This document shows positions 562-5,760 of a DNA stretch of 64,000 bases, piece after piece. Below the pieces are notes generated by a model. The model was not told where the DNA came from and did no database searches. It worked only from the letters and a program-made list of their open reading frames with translations. This DNA comes from Phycisphaerae bacterium (GTDB lineage: Bacteria; Planctomycetota; Phycisphaerae; UBA1845): NCBI GenBank assembly GCA_013360585.1, contig JABWBH010000042.1, positions 1 to 64,000 on the forward strand. The letters are read 5' to 3'. A program made the translations under genes and the position numbers. The stretch's first letter is position 1. Every line of letters starts with the position of its first letter.

Positions 562-717
562 ATGAAACTTCAAGACTTGCCGTTACCGGACCTGCGGCGC
601 GCGCTCCGAGCGACGGAGTCGGTGGCGGGCGCTGATTCCGTCGAAGCGCGCATGCTGAGGCGCGAACTTTCGCGCCGCGAAACCCGAAAGCGCAAGGCGC
701 GGAGGCCGCGCCGATGA
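562..717 (+). CDS. Tiny basic protein of the element (51 aa)
   Basis: ATG at 562 opens a 51-residue frame starting MKLQDLPLPDLRRAL and ending in a very basic tail (RKRKARRPRR). Its TGA (715-717) overlaps the ATG of the next gene (714) by four bases, the same coupling used throughout this element, which is the main reason to believe it. The N-terminal half can form an amphipathic helix. Function is unknown; the size and charge suggest a DNA- or protein-binding accessory factor. The ribosome binding site upstream is weak. Confidence 0.55.
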   Translation: MKLQDLPLPDLRRALRATESVAGADSVEARMLRRELSRRETRKRKARRPRR

Positions 718-923
718 ATGACCCCCCCGAAAAACTGCTCACCACGACGGAGGTCTGCGAGCTTCTTTCGATTGGAAAACGCACCTTGTGGAAGTGGCTC
801 GCGGCGCGCAGCCTTCCGCCGCCGGATGCGCGGTTGAAGGGGAAATGGTTGCGCTGGCGCGCTTCGACAATTCAAACCTGGATTGAAGAGCAAAAGTGCC
901 ACAATAACGGCACTCACAAATAA
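714..923 (+). CDS. Excisionase/AlpA-like HTH protein (69 aa)
   Basis: The protein carries a MerR-like winged helix of the HTH_17 excisionase type: LLTTTEVCELLSIGKRTLWK, then a wing ending KGKWLRWRASTIQTWIEE. Proteins of this size and fold bind att-flanking DNA and bias tyrosine integrases toward excision, or regulate element genes. It is coupled by a 4-base overlap to the 51-aa gene before it. A strong hairpin follows its TAA. Whether it is an Xis or a transcriptional activator cannot be told from sequence. Confidence 0.8.
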   Translation: MNDPPEKLLTTTEVCELLSIGKRTLWKWLAARSLPPPDARLKGKWLRWRASTIQTWIEEQKCHNNGTHK

Positions 924-928
924 CAAAG

Positions 929-961
929 AACCCCGGCCATGCTTGGCGGCGCGCCGGGGTT
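929..961 (+). terminator. Nine-base-pair GC hairpin after the HTH gene
   Basis: AACCCCGGC (929-937) pairs perfectly with GCCGGGGTT (953-961) around a 15-base loop, starting six bases after the stop codon of the HTH gene. There is no T-tract, so it is not a classical terminator. It lies just before the ATG at 964 and could also attenuate or hide that start. Confidence 0.4.
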
Positions 962-963
962 CA

Positions 964-1128
964 ATGGAGAAAAACTTGACCTGCAAATTGTATCCGAAAG
1001 CACCTCACCCGTACAAGGCCGCGCTGGAGCGCGACCCCGATCTTTTTTGGTGCTGGGCGTGGCGCTCGACGCGCGCCGCTCAACGCGCGCTGCATGTCAA
1101 GAATCAGCACGGAGGCGCGAAAAAATGA
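964..1128 (+). CDS. Small hypothetical element protein (54 aa)
   Basis: ATG at 964 gives a 54-residue frame rich in aromatic and basic residues (DLFWCWAWRSTRAAQ). Its TGA (1126-1128) overlaps the ATG of the ATPase gene at 1125, again as ATGA, and the ATPase ribosome binding site (GGAGG, 1111-1115) lies inside its last codons. That coupling favours a real leader or partner gene. No family is recognised and the ribosome binding site for this frame is poor, so it could also be a non-coding leader. Confidence 0.4.
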   Translation: MEKNLTCKLYPKAPHPYKAALERDPDLFWCWAWRSTRAAQRALHVKNQHGGAKK

Positions 1129-2522
1129 TCCCGGATGACGCTTTTAAGTGCACCATTTGCCGCAACATTTACCTGAAAACACGGCTCGCGGCGTATGGAC
1201 CCGAACCGATTTGTAACCGTTGCCTGAAACCCGCCGCGACAAGCCATTCCGAAGGCGCAACGGAGCGACGTGCTGCGCCCCCGAAACGCGGCGCAGGCGA
1301 CGAAGCCCCGACGGTTCGGTCCGCCCCCGTGCTCGTAAGAATGGCCGACGTGAAGCCCGAGCGCGTGCGGTGGCTTTGGCCGGGTCGTATTCCGCTGGGG
1401 AAGCTCACCCTCTGGGCGGGCGATCCCAACCTGGGCAAGTCCCTGACGACGATGGACATCGCGGCGCGGCTCACGCGCGGCGCGGCTTGGCCGGACGCCC
1501 CCGGACTCATGCAGGAGCCGGGCGGGGTCATCATTCTTTCGGCGGAGGACGACGCGGCGGACACGATTCGCCCCCGACTGGACGCGGCGCTGGCGGACGT
1601 GTCGCGGGTGACCTCGCTTAGCGCGATCAAGTGCGGCGAGGCCGAGCGCGGGTTCGACATGTCCGCAGACCTGGGCTGTTTGGAAGTCGCAATTGACGCG
1701 CAACCTGGCACGCGGCTGATCATCATCGACCCGGTATCCGCATACATGGGAACGCGGCTGGATTCGCACCGCAACACGGACGTGCGCGCGATCCTCGCCC
1801 CGCTGGGCGCGCTGGCGGCGAAACACGGCGTCGCGGTCCTGGCCATCACCCACCTGAGCAAAGGCGCGGGCGGCAAGGCGATCTACCGGGCGACGGGTTC
1901 GCTCGCGTTCGCGGCGGCGGCTCGGGCGGCGTGGCTCATCGCGCAAGACCCGAACGATGCGGACCACCGGCTGTTGCTTCCCATGAAAGTGAACGTCGGG
2001 CGAGCCGCGCCGAGCTGGGGGTACTCGATCCAGCAGGACGCCGAGGGCCGACCGGCTGTGGTCTGGGACGCGAGCGGCAACACCATGACGGCCAACGACG
2101 TTCTGGCGGCGGAACTGGATCGGAAGGATTCCGAATTGGATAAGGCGGTGGGCTTCCTTCGGGAGGTGTTCGCCAACGGCCCCGTTCCGAAAACCGAGGT
2201 AGACCGCGAGGCGAAACAGGCGGGCTACTCCGCCGCGACGGTCCGCCGTGCCAAGGGCGTCCTGGGTATCGTCACCAAGAAAGACGGCATGGACGGCGGA
2301 TGGACGTGGGGGCTTCCCGAAGGTGCTCAAGACCCGAGCATACCCGTTTGCGCACCTTCGAAGGTGCTCAAGGTTTCGGAGACTTGCGCACCTTCGGCTG
2401 GCGCTATCAAAAACGGGGTTTTAGGTCCGTCAAAACGTGCGCCAGCTGAAGGTGCTCAAATGGACCCCTTAGGGATGAGCACCTTCGGCGGACAGGACGC
2501 TGTTGAGGTTGTCGAGATATGA
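1125..2522 (+). CDS. RepA-like AAA ATPase with zinc ribbon
   Basis: The 465-aa protein opens with a zinc ribbon (C9, C12, C30, C33), followed by a RecA/DnaB-like core of the AAA_25 (RepA) family: Walker A GDPNLGKS at about residues 99-106, a Walker B strand RLIIIDPVSAYMG, and a conserved AITHLSKG motif. A winged-helix-like segment (GPVPKTEVDREAKQAGYS) follows. Such proteins are hexameric replicative helicases or initiators of plasmids, phages and integrative elements. The start is fixed by GGAGG nine bases upstream. The last 70 or so residues are low-complexity and coincide with a DNA inverted-repeat array. It is coupled to its neighbours by ATGA overlaps on both sides. Confidence 0.85.
   Translation: MIPDDAFKCTICRNIYLKTRLAAYGPEPICNRCLKPAATSHSEGATERRAAPPKRGAGDEAPTVRSAPVLVRMADVKPERVRWLWPGRIPLGKLTLWAGDPNLGKSLTTMDIAARLTRGAAWPDAPGLMQEPGGVIILSAEDDAADTIRPRLDAALADVSRVTSLSAIKCGEAERGFDMSADLGCLEVAIDAQPGTRLIIIDPVSAYMGTRLDSHRNTDVRAILAPLGALAAKHGVAVLAITHLSKGAGGKAIYRATGSLAFAAAARAAWLIAQDPNDADHRLLLPMKVNVGRAAPSWGYSIQQDAEGRPAVVWDASGNTMTANDVLAAELDRKDSELDKAVGFLREVFANGPVPKTEVDREAKQAGYSAATVRRAKGVLGIVTKKDGMDGGWTWGLPEGAQDPSIPVCAPSKVLKVSETCAPSAGAIKNGVLGPSKRAPAEGAQMDPLGMSTFGGQDAVEVVEI
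2319..2490 (+). repeat. Inverted-repeat array in the 3' end of the ATPase gene
   Basis: The core CACCTTCG or its complement recurs: GAAGGTGCTCAA at 2319-2330 and 2448-2459, a perfect 16-base palindrome GCACCTTCGAAGGTGC at 2352-2367, GCACCTTCGG at 2388-2397 and GCACCTTCGGCG at 2479-2490. In addition 2388-2404 and 2439-2455 form a 17-base inverted repeat with one mismatch. The repeats are translated as CAPS and AEGAQ-like tracts, so the protein tail appears to be a by-product of a DNA-level signal. Possible initiator or partner binding site. Confidence 0.7.
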
Positions 2523-3283
2523 CCCCGACGATGCTCCTGGCGCGGCTTTCCGCCTTGGGCGTGCGACTGTCCGTCAGCGGCGAACGGCTGCGCACGGAAG
2601 CGCCCAAGGGCGTGTTGACACGCGACCTGTTGGCGCAGCTCCGGGCGCACAAGGCCGAGCTACTGGCGGCGCTGGCTTCCGGCGCTGCCGGGGATGGATT
2701 CGACGGCGGCGATATGAAGAAGGCTGAGCGTGGCCACGCGCTCGGGCAAGTCGCCGTTGTGGCCGCCGTAGGCGATGACCAACCCCCCTTTGACAAGAAT
2801 CGCGTTCTCGGGGTGGGTCACGTCGTACCCTTGTCCGCTGGACGCGACGACGCGGAACGGCTCGAAGGGTTGCTTCCGCAGGAAGCCTTGAAGCAAGTCG
2901 ATGGTCATGCCGGAATTGTATCCCCGCTGCCCGCGTCATGCCAAGCTGCCCCTGTCGATGCCGATGCGTGCCGACCCGTGCCGGACGCGCCGACGGACCG
3001 AGCGGGCTGGGGCGACGCTCTTGCGGCGATCCGGGCGGCGGGGCGGCGGAAGCTGGCCGGGCTTGGGTGGATCGTCGGGGACCGGCTGGCGGGGTTGCCG
3101 GAAGAGCTTCAGGGGCTGGTCATGCCACGCGAGGGTTGGACACCTGCATCGTGGGCCGAGCATATGCGCTACCTGGCCGGGCGGTGCGCCGAGCTTCACC
3201 CGGACCGGGCGAACCTGTACCGCCGGGCGTCGGGGATGCTGGTTGCTGAATGGCGGCGGATCGAACGGGGTGGACCGGCGTGA
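2519..3283 (+). CDS. TubC-N-like element protein, interrupted by an antisense gene
   Basis: The 254-aa frame starts at an ATGA overlap with the ATPase gene. Residues 1-50 resemble the TubC N-terminal docking fold often found at the start of element primase or accessory proteins (LLARLSALGVRLSVSGERL, then RAHKAELLAAL). Residues about 150-254 form a second helical region (GWTPASWAEHMRYLAGRCA). Between them, residues about 47-130 are low in recognisable character and lie exactly opposite an 82-aa minus-strand gene of a recognisable family. I infer an insertion that kept the frame open; whether the product is still functional is unknown. It ends in a GTGA overlap with the nuclease gene. Confidence 0.65.
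   Translation: MTPTMLLARLSALGVRLSVSGERLRTEAPKGVLTRDLLAQLRAHKAELLAALASGAAGDGFDGGDMKKAERGHALGQVAVVAAVGDDQPPFDKNRVLGVGHVVPLSAGRDDAERLEGLLPQEALKQVDGHAGIVSPLPASCQAAPVDADACRPVPDAPTDRAGWGDALAAIRAAGRRKLAGLGWIVGDRLAGLPEELQGLVMPREGWTPASWAEHMRYLAGRCAELHPDRANLYRRASGMLVAEWRRIERGGPA
2660..2908 (-). CDS. QPFEPFRV-type small conserved protein, antisense nested
   Basis: The 82-aa product begins MTIDLLQGFLRKQPFEPFRV, followed by HPENAILVKGG and a C-terminal TLSLLHIAAVES. I recognise this layout (short helix, QPFxPFRV, HPE, final beta strand with IxxVE) from a family of 70-90 aa proteins of unknown function frequent in planctomycetes. The opposite-strand translation here is nondescript, so this is probably the genuine reading frame of the segment. 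No strong ribosome binding site is visible. It is the only minus-strand gene within the element. Confidence 0.65.
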   Translation of the reverse strand: MTIDLLQGFLRKQPFEPFRVVASSGQGYDVTHPENAILVKGGLVIAYGGHNGDLPERVATLSLLHIAAVESIPGSAGSQRRQ

Positions 3284-3798
3284 AGCTGACCCCGGTAATC
3301 ATCATCGACACCCGCGAGCAATCGCCGTTCACGTTCGCCAACCTGCCGAGCGAGCCGGGCACGCTGGACACGGGGGACTACTCCGTCCGGGGGCTGGAGC
3401 GTCTTGTCGCGGTGGAGCGGAAGTCTTTGGACGACTTGCTCGCGTGCGTCGGGCGGGAGCGGGATCGGTTCAAGCGGGAGCTTCAACGGCTCCGGGCGTA
3501 TCGCTTCCGGCTGCTGATCGTCGAGGCGTCGGCGGCGGACCTGGAGCAAGGGGTGTACCCCCAAGGGGCGTACCCCTTAAACCCCCAAGGGGCACGCCCT
3601 TTGTGGCGATCTAAGCTGACACCGGCGCACGTGCTGGGGAGCCTGGCCGCGTGGACGGCGCAATACACGCTGCCGGTTTGGCTCGGCGGGACGCATGACG
3701 AATCCGGGCGGTTCGTCGAGCGGTTCCTGTATCAGGCGGCGCGGACCGTGGCGGGCGAGGCGGAAGCGGTCTTCGGGAAGCTGAAAGAAAGCGCTTGA
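3280..3798 (+). CDS. ERCC4-domain nuclease
   Basis: From the GTG at 3280 (overlapping the upstream TGA as GTGA; an in-frame ATG at 3250 is the alternative) the protein has 172 aa. It carries the ERCC4/XPF nuclease core: IIIDTREQSPF near the N-terminus and the metal-binding VERKSLDDLL motif, with GDYSV between them. Stand-alone ERCC4 nucleases occur in phages and integrative elements, where they are inferred to act on branched or recombining DNA. An unusual QGVYPQGAYPLNPQGARPL insert at about residues 90-108 comes from three palindromic DNA repeats. It is the last gene of the coupled replication block. Confidence 0.85.
   Translation: MKLTPVIIIDTREQSPFTFANLPSEPGTLDTGDYSVRGLERLVAVERKSLDDLLACVGRERDRFKRELQRLRAYRFRLLIVEASAADLEQGVYPQGAYPLNPQGARPLWRSKLTPAHVLGSLAAWTAQYTLPVWLGGTHDESGRFVERFLYQAARTVAGEAEAVFGKLKESA
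3548..3602 (+). repeat. Three near-palindromic AAGGGG...CCCTT repeats inside the nuclease gene
   Basis: AAGGGGTGTACCCCC (3548-3562), AAGGGGCGTACCCCTT (3563-3578) and AAGGGGCACGCCCTTT (3587-3602) are adjacent copies of a REP-like palindrome, separated once by AAACCCCC. They keep the reading frame. They look like a small palindromic element inserted into the gene and tolerated in a surface loop. Confidence 0.75.
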
Positions 3799-3824
3799 CA
3801 GGATACCTGTATGCGTGATATCAT
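3795..3824 (+). promoter_or_regulatory. Strong promoter with operator for the Cro/cI-like gene
   Basis: TTGACA at 3795-3800, an 18-base spacer and an extended -10 (TG at 3816-3817, then TATCAT at 3819-3824) form a near-consensus sigma-70 promoter. The expected transcription start (about 3831-3832) falls on the ATG at 3832, so the mRNA should be leaderless. The spacer holds ATAC-CT-GTAT (3803-3812) and the -10 overlaps the palindrome TGATATCA (3816-3823), both plausible operators for autorepression. Confidence 0.75.
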
Positions 3825-3831
3825 AGAATAC

Positions 3832-4065
3832 ATGAACCTAGCAGACAGTCTGAAAGCGGCGGCGAAGCGGAGCGGGTTGTCTATGCTGGCCATATCCAAA
3901 GCGACCGGCTTGAACTACCAGACGGTCCACGGATTCTTGAAGGGCGAGCGGGACATTGCGCTATCTTCGGCGGTGAAGCTGGCCGACGTGCTGGACCTGG
4001 AACTGCGCCCGAAGGCGTCGAAGGCGTCGAAGGCGGCGGGCACGTCGAAGAAAGGGGGACGGTGA
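3832..4065 (+). CDS. Cro/cI-like XRE-family repressor (77 aa)
   Basis: A single XRE helix-turn-helix spans about residues 10-60: LAISKATGLNYQTVHGFLKG is the HTH, followed by the typical SSAVKLADVLDLEL helices. The C-terminus is a short Lys/Ala/Ser tail. It has its own strong promoter with operator-like palindromes and overlaps the integrase gene, so it probably represses its own promoter and thereby controls integrase supply. An ATG at 3811 in frame lies within the promoter spacer and is rejected as start. Confidence 0.85.
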   Translation: MNLADSLKAAAKRSGLSMLAISKATGLNYQTVHGFLKGERDIALSSAVKLADVLDLELRPKASKASKAAGTSKKGGR

Positions 4066-5690
4066 TGCGACGAAGCAAGGGCACGCTCTATCGACCGGTG
4101 ACGACGCGGACCGTCGGCGGGCGGAAAGTGAAGCGCAAGGCCGCCTTCTACTGGGCGCGGTACGTCGATGCGGACGGCGGGCGTTGCTGTCATGCACTCA
4201 CCCTCCCCGACGGCGGGCGGGTGACGGATAAGGACGTGGCGCGGTCGGTGCTGGATGCGATCCTGAAGCGCGTGGAGCGCGAATCCGCCGGGCTGGTGGA
4301 CCGGACGCTGGAAGCGGCCCGGACGCCAATGCGTGTCGTGCTGGCGGACTTCATCCGGCACTTGCGGCGGAAGGGCACGGGGCGCGCGTACACTCGGCAA
4401 GCGCTGGCGTCCATCAAGTGGATGATCGACCACGCGGCGATGGAACGGCTGGCCGACTTCCGCGAGGAACGCATTGACAAGGCGCTGGGCAAGCTGGCGG
4501 ACGCCGGACGAAGCGTCAAGACAGTGAACGAGTATCGCGGGATATGCTTCGCGCTGGCGCGGTGGGCGATGACGACGGCGCGGCTCCTGGATCGGAACCC
4601 GGTTGAAGCGGTCCCCCGTCGCAAGGCTCGCGGCGAATCGGACATCGTGAAAGTGCGCCGGGCGTTGACCGTCGAGGAAGCCGGGCGGCTCCTGAACGTC
4701 GCGGGAACCCGCCGGGCGTACTACGCCGTGGCGTTGTGGTCGGGGTTGCGCTGGGGCGAGATAGCGGCACTGGAATGGCGCGATGCGGACCTGACAAGCG
4801 ACCGTCCCGCGATCCGGCTCCGGGCGGAAGCGACGAAAGCCAAGCGTGCGGACGTGCTCCCCCTTCACTCGGACCTGGCCGACGTGTTCGGTCGGCTTCG
4901 CCAAGCCGTCCCCTTCGCCAAGCCGACCGACCGTGTGTTCACGCGACCCCCGACGCTGCGGACGTTCAAATTGGACCTGGACCGCGCGGGCATCACCTGG
5001 CGGAAGGATGACCATGACGACGGAGCTTCGATCGACCGGCACGCCCTGCGGACGACGTTCGTATCGTGGCTGGAAGCGGCGGGCGTGAGCGGGACGGCGA
5101 AGCGGCTCCTTGCCCGGCACGCGGCGGTAGGCGTCACGGAACGGCATTACACGGACGCCCGGCTCCTGGACCTATGGGCGGAGATACGCAAGCTGCCCCC
5201 GATCCCGAAGGCGGGAACGGAAGCGGCGTCCGTCAAGGCGACGGGGACGCACGGCAAGGCGTCGGCTCCCCCGCGCGTGCGTGCGCAAGGGGCGAAGGGT
5301 TGGATAAAACCGGGCACGGAGCGCGTTGCACTCCCGGTTGCACTTCACAACGGCATTCAGGGGCGCGGCGCGGCATTCATCGGCACGGTTGGGAAAAGTG
5401 TCACGAGTATGACACCTTCAGAAAACACCGGGAAAAACCCGTGTTTTTCGGCTGAAAATGAACTCGGGGCGACAGGATTCGAACCTGCGTCCTCCTGGTC
5501 CCAAACCAGGCGCTCTAGCCGGACTGAGCTACGCCCCGCGCAAGCGTGCAACGTCCGTCGGCGCGGGCGGGAAGTCAAGGTCCGGACGTGGGGGGTGCGT
5601 TCCGATGTTCCGAGGCGCGGCATCCTGAATCGTCGCTTTCGATTCCGCGGCGTGCCAGGAGACAAGCGTTCGCGCAGGCTGAAGCCCTAA
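4065..5690 (+). CDS. Tyrosine integrase reading through the att/tRNA site
   Basis: The catalytic set of a phage-type tyrosine recombinase is complete: R229 (GLRWGEIAALEW), H326 and R329 (HALRTTF), H352 (RHAAVG) and nucleophile Y362 (ERHYTD). An N-terminal SAM-like core-binding domain covers about residues 80-175. The catalytic fold ends near residue 380. The open frame then runs through a low-complexity tail, enters the tRNA-Pro gene at residue 467 and stops only in chromosomal DNA at 5690. The last 75 residues are therefore templated by host DNA in the integrated state. ATG at 4065 follows a GGGGGA box; a GTG at 4062 is an alternative. Confidence 0.9.
   Translation: MRRSKGTLYRPVTTRTVGGRKVKRKAAFYWARYVDADGGRCCHALTLPDGGRVTDKDVARSVLDAILKRVERESAGLVDRTLEAARTPMRVVLADFIRHLRRKGTGRAYTRQALASIKWMIDHAAMERLADFREERIDKALGKLADAGRSVKTVNEYRGICFALARWAMTTARLLDRNPVEAVPRRKARGESDIVKVRRALTVEEAGRLLNVAGTRRAYYAVALWSGLRWGEIAALEWRDADLTSDRPAIRLRAEATKAKRADVLPLHSDLADVFGRLRQAVPFAKPTDRVFTRPPTLRTFKLDLDRAGITWRKDDHDDGASIDRHALRTTFVSWLEAAGVSGTAKRLLARHAAVGVTERHYTDARLLDLWAEIRKLPPIPKAGTEAASVKATGTHGKASAPPRVRAQGAKGWIKPGTERVALPVALHNGIQGRGAAFIGTVGKSVTSMTPSENTGKNPCFSAENELGATGFEPASSWSQTRRSSRTELRPAQACNVRRRGREVKVRTWGVRSDVPRRGILNRRFRFRGVPGDKRSRRLKP
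5464..5500. other. Inferred attachment site (tRNA-Pro 3' portion)
   Basis: The element ends at the 3' end of tRNA-Pro, so the crossover most likely lies in the T-arm or anticodon-stem part of the gene, as for other tRNA-targeting integrases. The exact core cannot be fixed because the other element end is not in the window. Confidence 0.55.
5464..5538 (-). tRNA. tRNA-Pro(UGG)
   Basis: On the minus strand a full cloverleaf is present: acceptor stem CGGGGCG/CGCCCCG with discriminator A, D-arm GCTC...GAGC, anticodon stem CCTGG/CCAGG around loop TTTGGGA (anticodon TGG), variable loop AGGAC, and T-arm GCAGG TTCGAAT CCTGT. CCA is not encoded. Its 3' end faces the mobile element and is the integration target. 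Confidence 0.95.
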
Positions 5691-5760
5691 TCATCACGAC
5701 TGGGAGACGCGCCATCGGGCAACGAGCGTACGCGCAGGCTGAAGCCTGCGGCTCAGAGAC
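5673..5760. repeat. Intergenic GGCTGAAGCC palindromes
   Basis: The 266-base gap between the tRNA and the decarboxylase gene (5539-5804) holds a degenerate GCAGGCTGAAGCC copy near 5673 and a full palindrome GCAGGCTGAAGCCTGC at 5734-5749 followed by GGCTCAG. The same unit with GGCTCAG recurs at 62431-62446. No gene is seen in this gap. Confidence 0.6.

Follow-up and report, generated by a model that had tools for sequence, protein, structure and literature searches.

A planctomycete integrative element whose attachment site probably lies within its own integrase gene

Phage Mx8 (and Mx9) carries attP within the int gene, the 3' end of which is replaced on integration, and a switch in the behaviour of the integrase has been reported (PMC6070905). 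In archaea, the suicidal SSV-type integrases also have the attachment site in the integrase gene, which is split by integration, and a review has called suicidal recombinases exclusively archaeal (PMC8371274). The authors of Islander regarded the overlap of int with attP as an exception, known for Mx8 and SSV (PMC4383910). In the literature that was searched, mostly without subscription journals, no paper was found on the planctomycete integrase family described here. The locus under study lies in a 64,000-nucleotide stretch of planctomycete DNA (the window), and our reading, to which we give a probability of about 0.86, is that it represents the right-hand part of an integrative element. The element would have its attP entirely within the integrase gene, and integration would cut this gene.

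The integrase of the window is a tyrosine recombinase of the phage integrase type (PF00589), since it matches this profile over residues 201-365 (E 1.5e-9) and retains the complete R-K-H-R-H-Y catalytic set (R229, K258, H326, R329, H352 and Y362) in an alignment with 22 relatives. In the integrated state, its ORF comprises 541 codons from ATG with no internal stop, and a complete tRNA-Pro(TGG) gene, placed by ARAGORN, is situated entirely within it (Table 1), while the stop falls 152 nt past the tRNA in host DNA. An earlier note on this DNA had described a frame open through the tRNA to this stop, as the ORF and the tRNA placement bear out, and a 75-residue tail (467-541) templated by the tRNA antisense and host sequence, the residue range of which is confirmed. 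The host-supplied stop coincides with a short repeat, GCGCAGGCTGAAGCC (window 5668-5750), whose full form, GCGCAGGCTGAAGCCTGCG, is located at 5732-5750 and whose core is also present in planctomycete loci L093 and L104. The genes upstream of the integrase, namely those for the HTH_17, AAA_25, TubC_N-like, ERCC4 and HTH_3 proteins, fit an integrative element or satellite.

Table 1. Features of the right end of the element in the window (window coordinates).
Feature	Positions	Strand	Remarks
HTH_17 excisionase-like protein	714..923	+	Candidate directionality factor
AAA_25 / primase-helicase-like protein	939..2522	+	Element gene
Protein with TubC_N-like N-terminus	2519..3283	+	Element gene
ERCC4-type nuclease	3250..3798	+	Element gene
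HTH_3 regulator	3811..4065	+	Immediately upstream of integrase
Tyrosine integrase ORF, integrated-state reading	4065..5690	+	Catalytic part about residues 1-378
Integrase tail, putative P arm of attP	5199..5463	+	Residues 379-466; few synonymous changes, DNA constrained
Putative arm-type direct repeat GTTGCACTCCCGGTTGCACT	5325..5344	+	Two units, 12-bp spacing; read V-A-L-P-V-A-L
Inverted repeat GTGTCA-CGAGTA-TGACAC	5398..5415		In P arm; possible accessory-protein site
tRNA-Pro(TGG), attachment gene	5464..5538	-	att core in 3' part; antisense to integrase frame
Host DNA	5539..5690	+	Gives last 50 residues and stop of integrated integrase

Since the window begins at the first base of contig C80, it shows no more of the element than its right end, and the left end was absent from the assembly when tRNA fragment patterns and a profile of the C-terminal domain described below were used. 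The free-form C-terminus of the tRNA-Pro integrase is therefore a prediction from relatives. Both integrase-bearing contigs of the window's genome (G000), C80 at its start and C5 at its end, break approximately 4 kb upstream of the integrase. These breaks are probably due to sequence common to the two elements, which would explain the missing left end. An arm-site match on contig C41 is a separate fragment carrying neither tRNA nor domain.

Relatives of the integrase were searched for in public assemblies, many of them metagenomic, covering 51 genomes at the family level and 114 at the order level, and were found at tRNA-Pro, Gln, His, Val, Ala, Ser, Thr, Leu, Lys, Met, Asn and Arg as well as at tmRNA (Rfam RF00023). 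The window's genome itself carries a 78% identical integrase at tRNA-Gln, the frame of which also runs through the whole tRNA, and Phycisphaerales bacterium SJ659 has one of 68% identity, which marks the host as a planctomycete of the Phycisphaerales type. A less related integrase beside tRNA-Gly in the window's genome ends on a stop of its own about 360 nt short of the tRNA, and entry into the tRNA is therefore a property of this integrase family rather than of all tRNA-linked integrases. A complete tRNA lies downstream of 32 related integrases, and the frames of 29 of them continue into it in antisense, so the window is not a lone case; the three exceptions are truncated integrase fragments. 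Along a tail of 80-100 codons, no intact relative meets a stop ahead of the tRNA. Inside the tRNA, 17 of the 29 entering frames stop, and the remaining 12 run through it. The constant feature is a gene without a stop of its own before the tRNA, the host-templated tail being variable, and a function of that tail in its own right was rejected because the tail is not conserved. In addition, fossil integrase 3' ends with P arms are present in the window's genome (C16:102.6k, C10:26.7k, C24:59.6k and C32:1.6k; loci L011, L012, L014 and L029), adjoining tRNA-His, tRNA-Val(TAC), tRNA-Val(GAC) and tRNA-Lys; with these four further genes, the tRNA genes that the element family has exploited within a single host therefore number at least six. 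Searches of viral contigs and plasmids found no relatives of the integrase, a search of phages returned distant integrases only, at a loose threshold, and the C-terminal peptide alone had no match in plasmids or phages.

Where relatives lie on long contigs, the far end of the element could be recognized by a displaced tRNA fragment, and the excised form was rebuilt by joining the right end, the core and the left interior as recombination would. Both ends were available for 13 elements, namely 12 relatives and the tRNA-Gln element of the window's genome, each a tRNA-targeting integrative element with the target gene at one end and its fragment at the other (tRNA-His, Asn twice, Ser twice, Leu twice, Gln, Thr, Arg, Lys, and tmRNA twice). 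On joining the ends, the integrase frame is open across the core in all 13, with core lengths of 24-71 bp in relatives and three different phases relative to the tRNA, and it continues for 183-271 nt past the core into a conserved motif (183-258 nt in the seven elements of the order). The free forms end, for example, in ...DPELAAIVAAWPALPAAIRAGVLALVRTAGASA in G080 and ...DPELAALVRAWPRLPEALRAGIMAMIRSTADGG in G021. The left end of the tRNA-Gln element is on contig C53, where the tRNA-Gln fragment is read in the frame matching that of the right end and leads into the domain, inside which the contig breaks off. The correct phase in 13 of 13 would arise by chance with a probability of about 6e-7, counting phase alone, and five of the elements were found from the domain side and hence not chosen for their frame, which is kept in all five.

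A further case is the contig IMGVR_UViG_3300035133_000029 (L163, L197), which has 9200 bp with a 99-bp exact terminal repeat and is best read as a circle of about 9.1 kb. Over its junction, a single continuous ORF comprises the catalytic domain, the 5' half of tRNA-His in sense, and the C-terminal domain; if the terminal repeat were an att duplication instead, the joined product would be identical. The contig carries a primase/helicase-like gene, and the orientation of its tRNA-His core is opposite to that in the window. It is in the 13 elements and this contig, rather than in the tRNA-Pro element, that attP within int was read. The suggestion in the earlier note that the C-terminus changes on excision therefore holds in part: the C-terminus does differ between the states in the rebuilt circles and the circular contig, but the gained tail to which importance had been attached is unconserved and ends within the tRNA in half of the relatives, and what matters is that a conserved C-terminal domain, encoded at the other end of the element, is lost.

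In L148 and L156, the integrase, the tRNA fragment and the domain share one ORF, and these serve only as supporting evidence because their N-terminal halves are frameshifted; in L156 (2572-3801, reverse-complement coordinates), a Cas9-like ORF starts shortly after the integrase-tRNA-domain junction. The attP-like chromosomal junctions L175 and L185 count against frame continuity, since the frames of integrase and domain are offset by one base; different elements may have come to lie in tandem there, or a frameshift may be involved. The offset is in the same direction in both (L175 1213-1408, minus strand; L185 1246-1585). In the tRNA-derived part of L175, the integrase stop is closely preceded by a GGGAAAC heptamer in the -1 phase.

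The C-terminal domain of roughly 30-40 residues, a short and probably helical stretch, has the motif xxAWPxLPxAIRAGIxAMVRA and is encoded at the end of the element opposite to the catalytic part. It is present in 84 of 114 genomes of the order and, at a stricter cut-off, in 45 of 392 genomes sampled across the phylum, and no Pfam family covers it. Differences in the motif are distributed over codon positions 1, 2 and 3 as 0.30, 0.20 and 0.53, and the domain is therefore real coding sequence under selection as protein. A few copies belong to unrelated proteins, for kinase-like planctomycete proteins also end in the motif at L145 (1184-2458, reverse-complement coordinates) and at L146 (1040-2653, plus strand), the latter confirmed as a kinase by Pfam; the motif may therefore be a portable interaction or stability tag.

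The whole attP, with 12-bp-spaced arm repeats, core and arm repeats again, appears from its sequence to lie inside the integrase ORF. The repeat GTTGCACTCCCGGTTGCACT of the window recurs beyond the core in relatives as well as in the tRNA-Gln element, where, as in the tRNA-His element of G010, a genome of the same genus, the far-side copy is read in another frame as C-T-P-G-C-T. A bipartite direct repeat in both arms, often two 8-bp units 12 bp apart, was detected in 12 of 13 elements tested, the circular one included, and G360 had no convincing repeat. On the integrase side, these repeats precede the core by 64-175 nt, and on the domain side they follow it by 14-74 nt; they score 14-25 vs. 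shuffled maxima of 9-13, and their sequence is specific to each element group. Versions related to the inverted repeat GTGTCA-N6-TGACAC also occur beside tRNA-Gln and tRNA-His. Between the tRNA-Pro and tRNA-Gln integrases, the P-arm tail has a pS of 0.158 vs. 0.455 in the catalytic part, i.e., synonymous differences are about three times rarer. The dN/dS of the tail is 0.55-0.86 vs. 0.16-0.34 in the catalytic part. With few synonymous changes and a raised dN/dS, the P-arm tail is therefore kept mainly as DNA, a constraint such as would be expected of putative arm-type integrase sites, and the weak selection at the protein level may mean that this part of the ORF is tolerated rather than a functional protein segment.

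In the relatives and the tRNA-Gln element, frame continuity, arm repeats, the split of the gene and coding conservation of the domain can thus be read from genomic sequence, and the tRNA-Pro element is presumably built in the same way. In the free circle, one ORF would encode the catalytic domain, the P-arm tail with the arm-type repeats, a tRNA-core peptide, the second arm and the C-terminal domain. Recombination with the tRNA gene would cut this ORF inside the tRNA core, whereby the catalytic part would stay beside the restored tRNA and take its stop from the tRNA or the host (here at 5690), and the C-terminal domain would remain behind the displaced tRNA fragment, at the opposite end of the element. 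We infer that the two products differ in activity: the full-length Int-P would act in integration, while the truncated Int-L with its chance tail might be weaker, less stable, or dependent on the HTH_17 protein for excision. By analogy with phage Mx8, the domain most likely favours integration or stabilizes the enzyme, and integration would lower integrase action until excision.

The alternative which survives best, possible but in our view the less convincing account, takes the overlap of attP with the 3' end of int as a matter of economy, so that the change of tail would have no regulatory meaning and the domain would be dispensable or a generic tag. An integrase in which the domain was idle would need neither the frame kept across the core in three phases nor the conservation of the domain as protein, and both are found; still, the integrated tails are unconserved and often short, the constraint on the P arm is mainly on DNA, and the occurrence of the same domain on kinases means that it may be such a tag.

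The remaining accounts concern how the frame arises and is used. That the domain is a small gene translated alone at the left end of the integrated element, its linkage to the integrase frame being secondary, seems improbable: an in-frame ATG, GTG or TTG is available between T-loop and motif in 31 of 43 copies, and a split protein complementing in trans is conceivable, yet 12 of the 43 have no such start, and a separate gene would need no integrase phase across the core, although all 13 elements keep it. Still less probable is a chance open frame in G+C-rich DNA, with the extension of the ORF as an annotation artefact and a protein that ends earlier. The antisense T-loop is indeed free of stops in the frames encountered, and in half of the relatives the frame closes within the tRNA. 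However, no intact relative stops earlier, and an antisense tRNA T-loop lies within 450 nt upstream of 43 of the 51 domain ORFs of the order (two control patterns gave 1 and 6 matches), in the same open frame in 41; between T-loop and motif, 42 of these 43 have an open domain frame, vs. 13 and 8 of 43 for the other two frames, and by these counts the chance extension was rejected. The least probable account holds that integrase transcription across the tRNA alters tRNA-Pro expression and is the selected feature. Both in the window and in most relatives of the order, the integrase does run antisense to the restored tRNA, but a sense orientation of the tRNA fragment occurs in other Planctomycetota, among them the circular G505. 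Outside the order and in IMG/VR, the T-loop is in frame in antisense in 17 of 32 and in sense in 6 of 32, and antisense overlap is therefore not the constant feature.

Returning to the integrase gene cut within its own attP, it is an evenly poised question whether the elements form a large undescribed class in Planctomycetota, in which the integrase would report the integration state, the domain would be encoded as part of it only by the free circle, and a reversible DNA-encoded switch would operate at a dozen tRNA types and tmRNA. Such a built-in record of integration state has in bacteria previously been described only for a few phages; here, the enzyme and a conserved domain would be united in one protein only in the free circle, in an arrangement common across a bacterial phylum, and the elements would offer many natural pairs for testing the control of integration direction. 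Moreover, annotated integrase C-termini at tRNA genes would often be chance host sequence, with the true C-terminus at the other end of the element.

Compared with the described systems, the planctomycete integrases share with lambda-like integrases and the tRNA integrases of the Islander set a tRNA or tmRNA target, a displaced 3' tRNA fragment and arm-type repeats flanking the core, whereas int in those systems normally ends before the core and the planctomycete int continues through it. With the SSV-type integrases, they have in common an att site inside the integrase gene and a split by integration. They are not of the SSV type, in which the N-terminal part is parted from the catalytic part and the enzyme is inactivated, while in the planctomycete family the att site lies about 100 residues past the catalytic tyrosine, and integration leaves the catalytic domain intact, removing only the C-terminal domain. 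The nearest likeness is to Mx8, with which attP inside int is common: Mx8 Int (GenBank AF396866) has a T-loop-antisense-like peptide, STGLEPVLLGSF, followed by about 100 more residues, and thus the same architecture. By sequence, the planctomycete integrases do not belong to the Mx8 integrase family, as Int similarity is weak (28% over a 260-residue segment, E 0.003) and the Mx8 C-terminus does not match the planctomycete domain profiles; the planctomycete family is, in addition, phylum-wide, targets 12 tRNA types and tmRNA, and has a conserved domain as well as arm repeats that flank the core within the ORF. On these comparisons, it appears to represent the Mx8 arrangement, widespread in Planctomycetota and provided with an unrelated conserved C-terminal domain.
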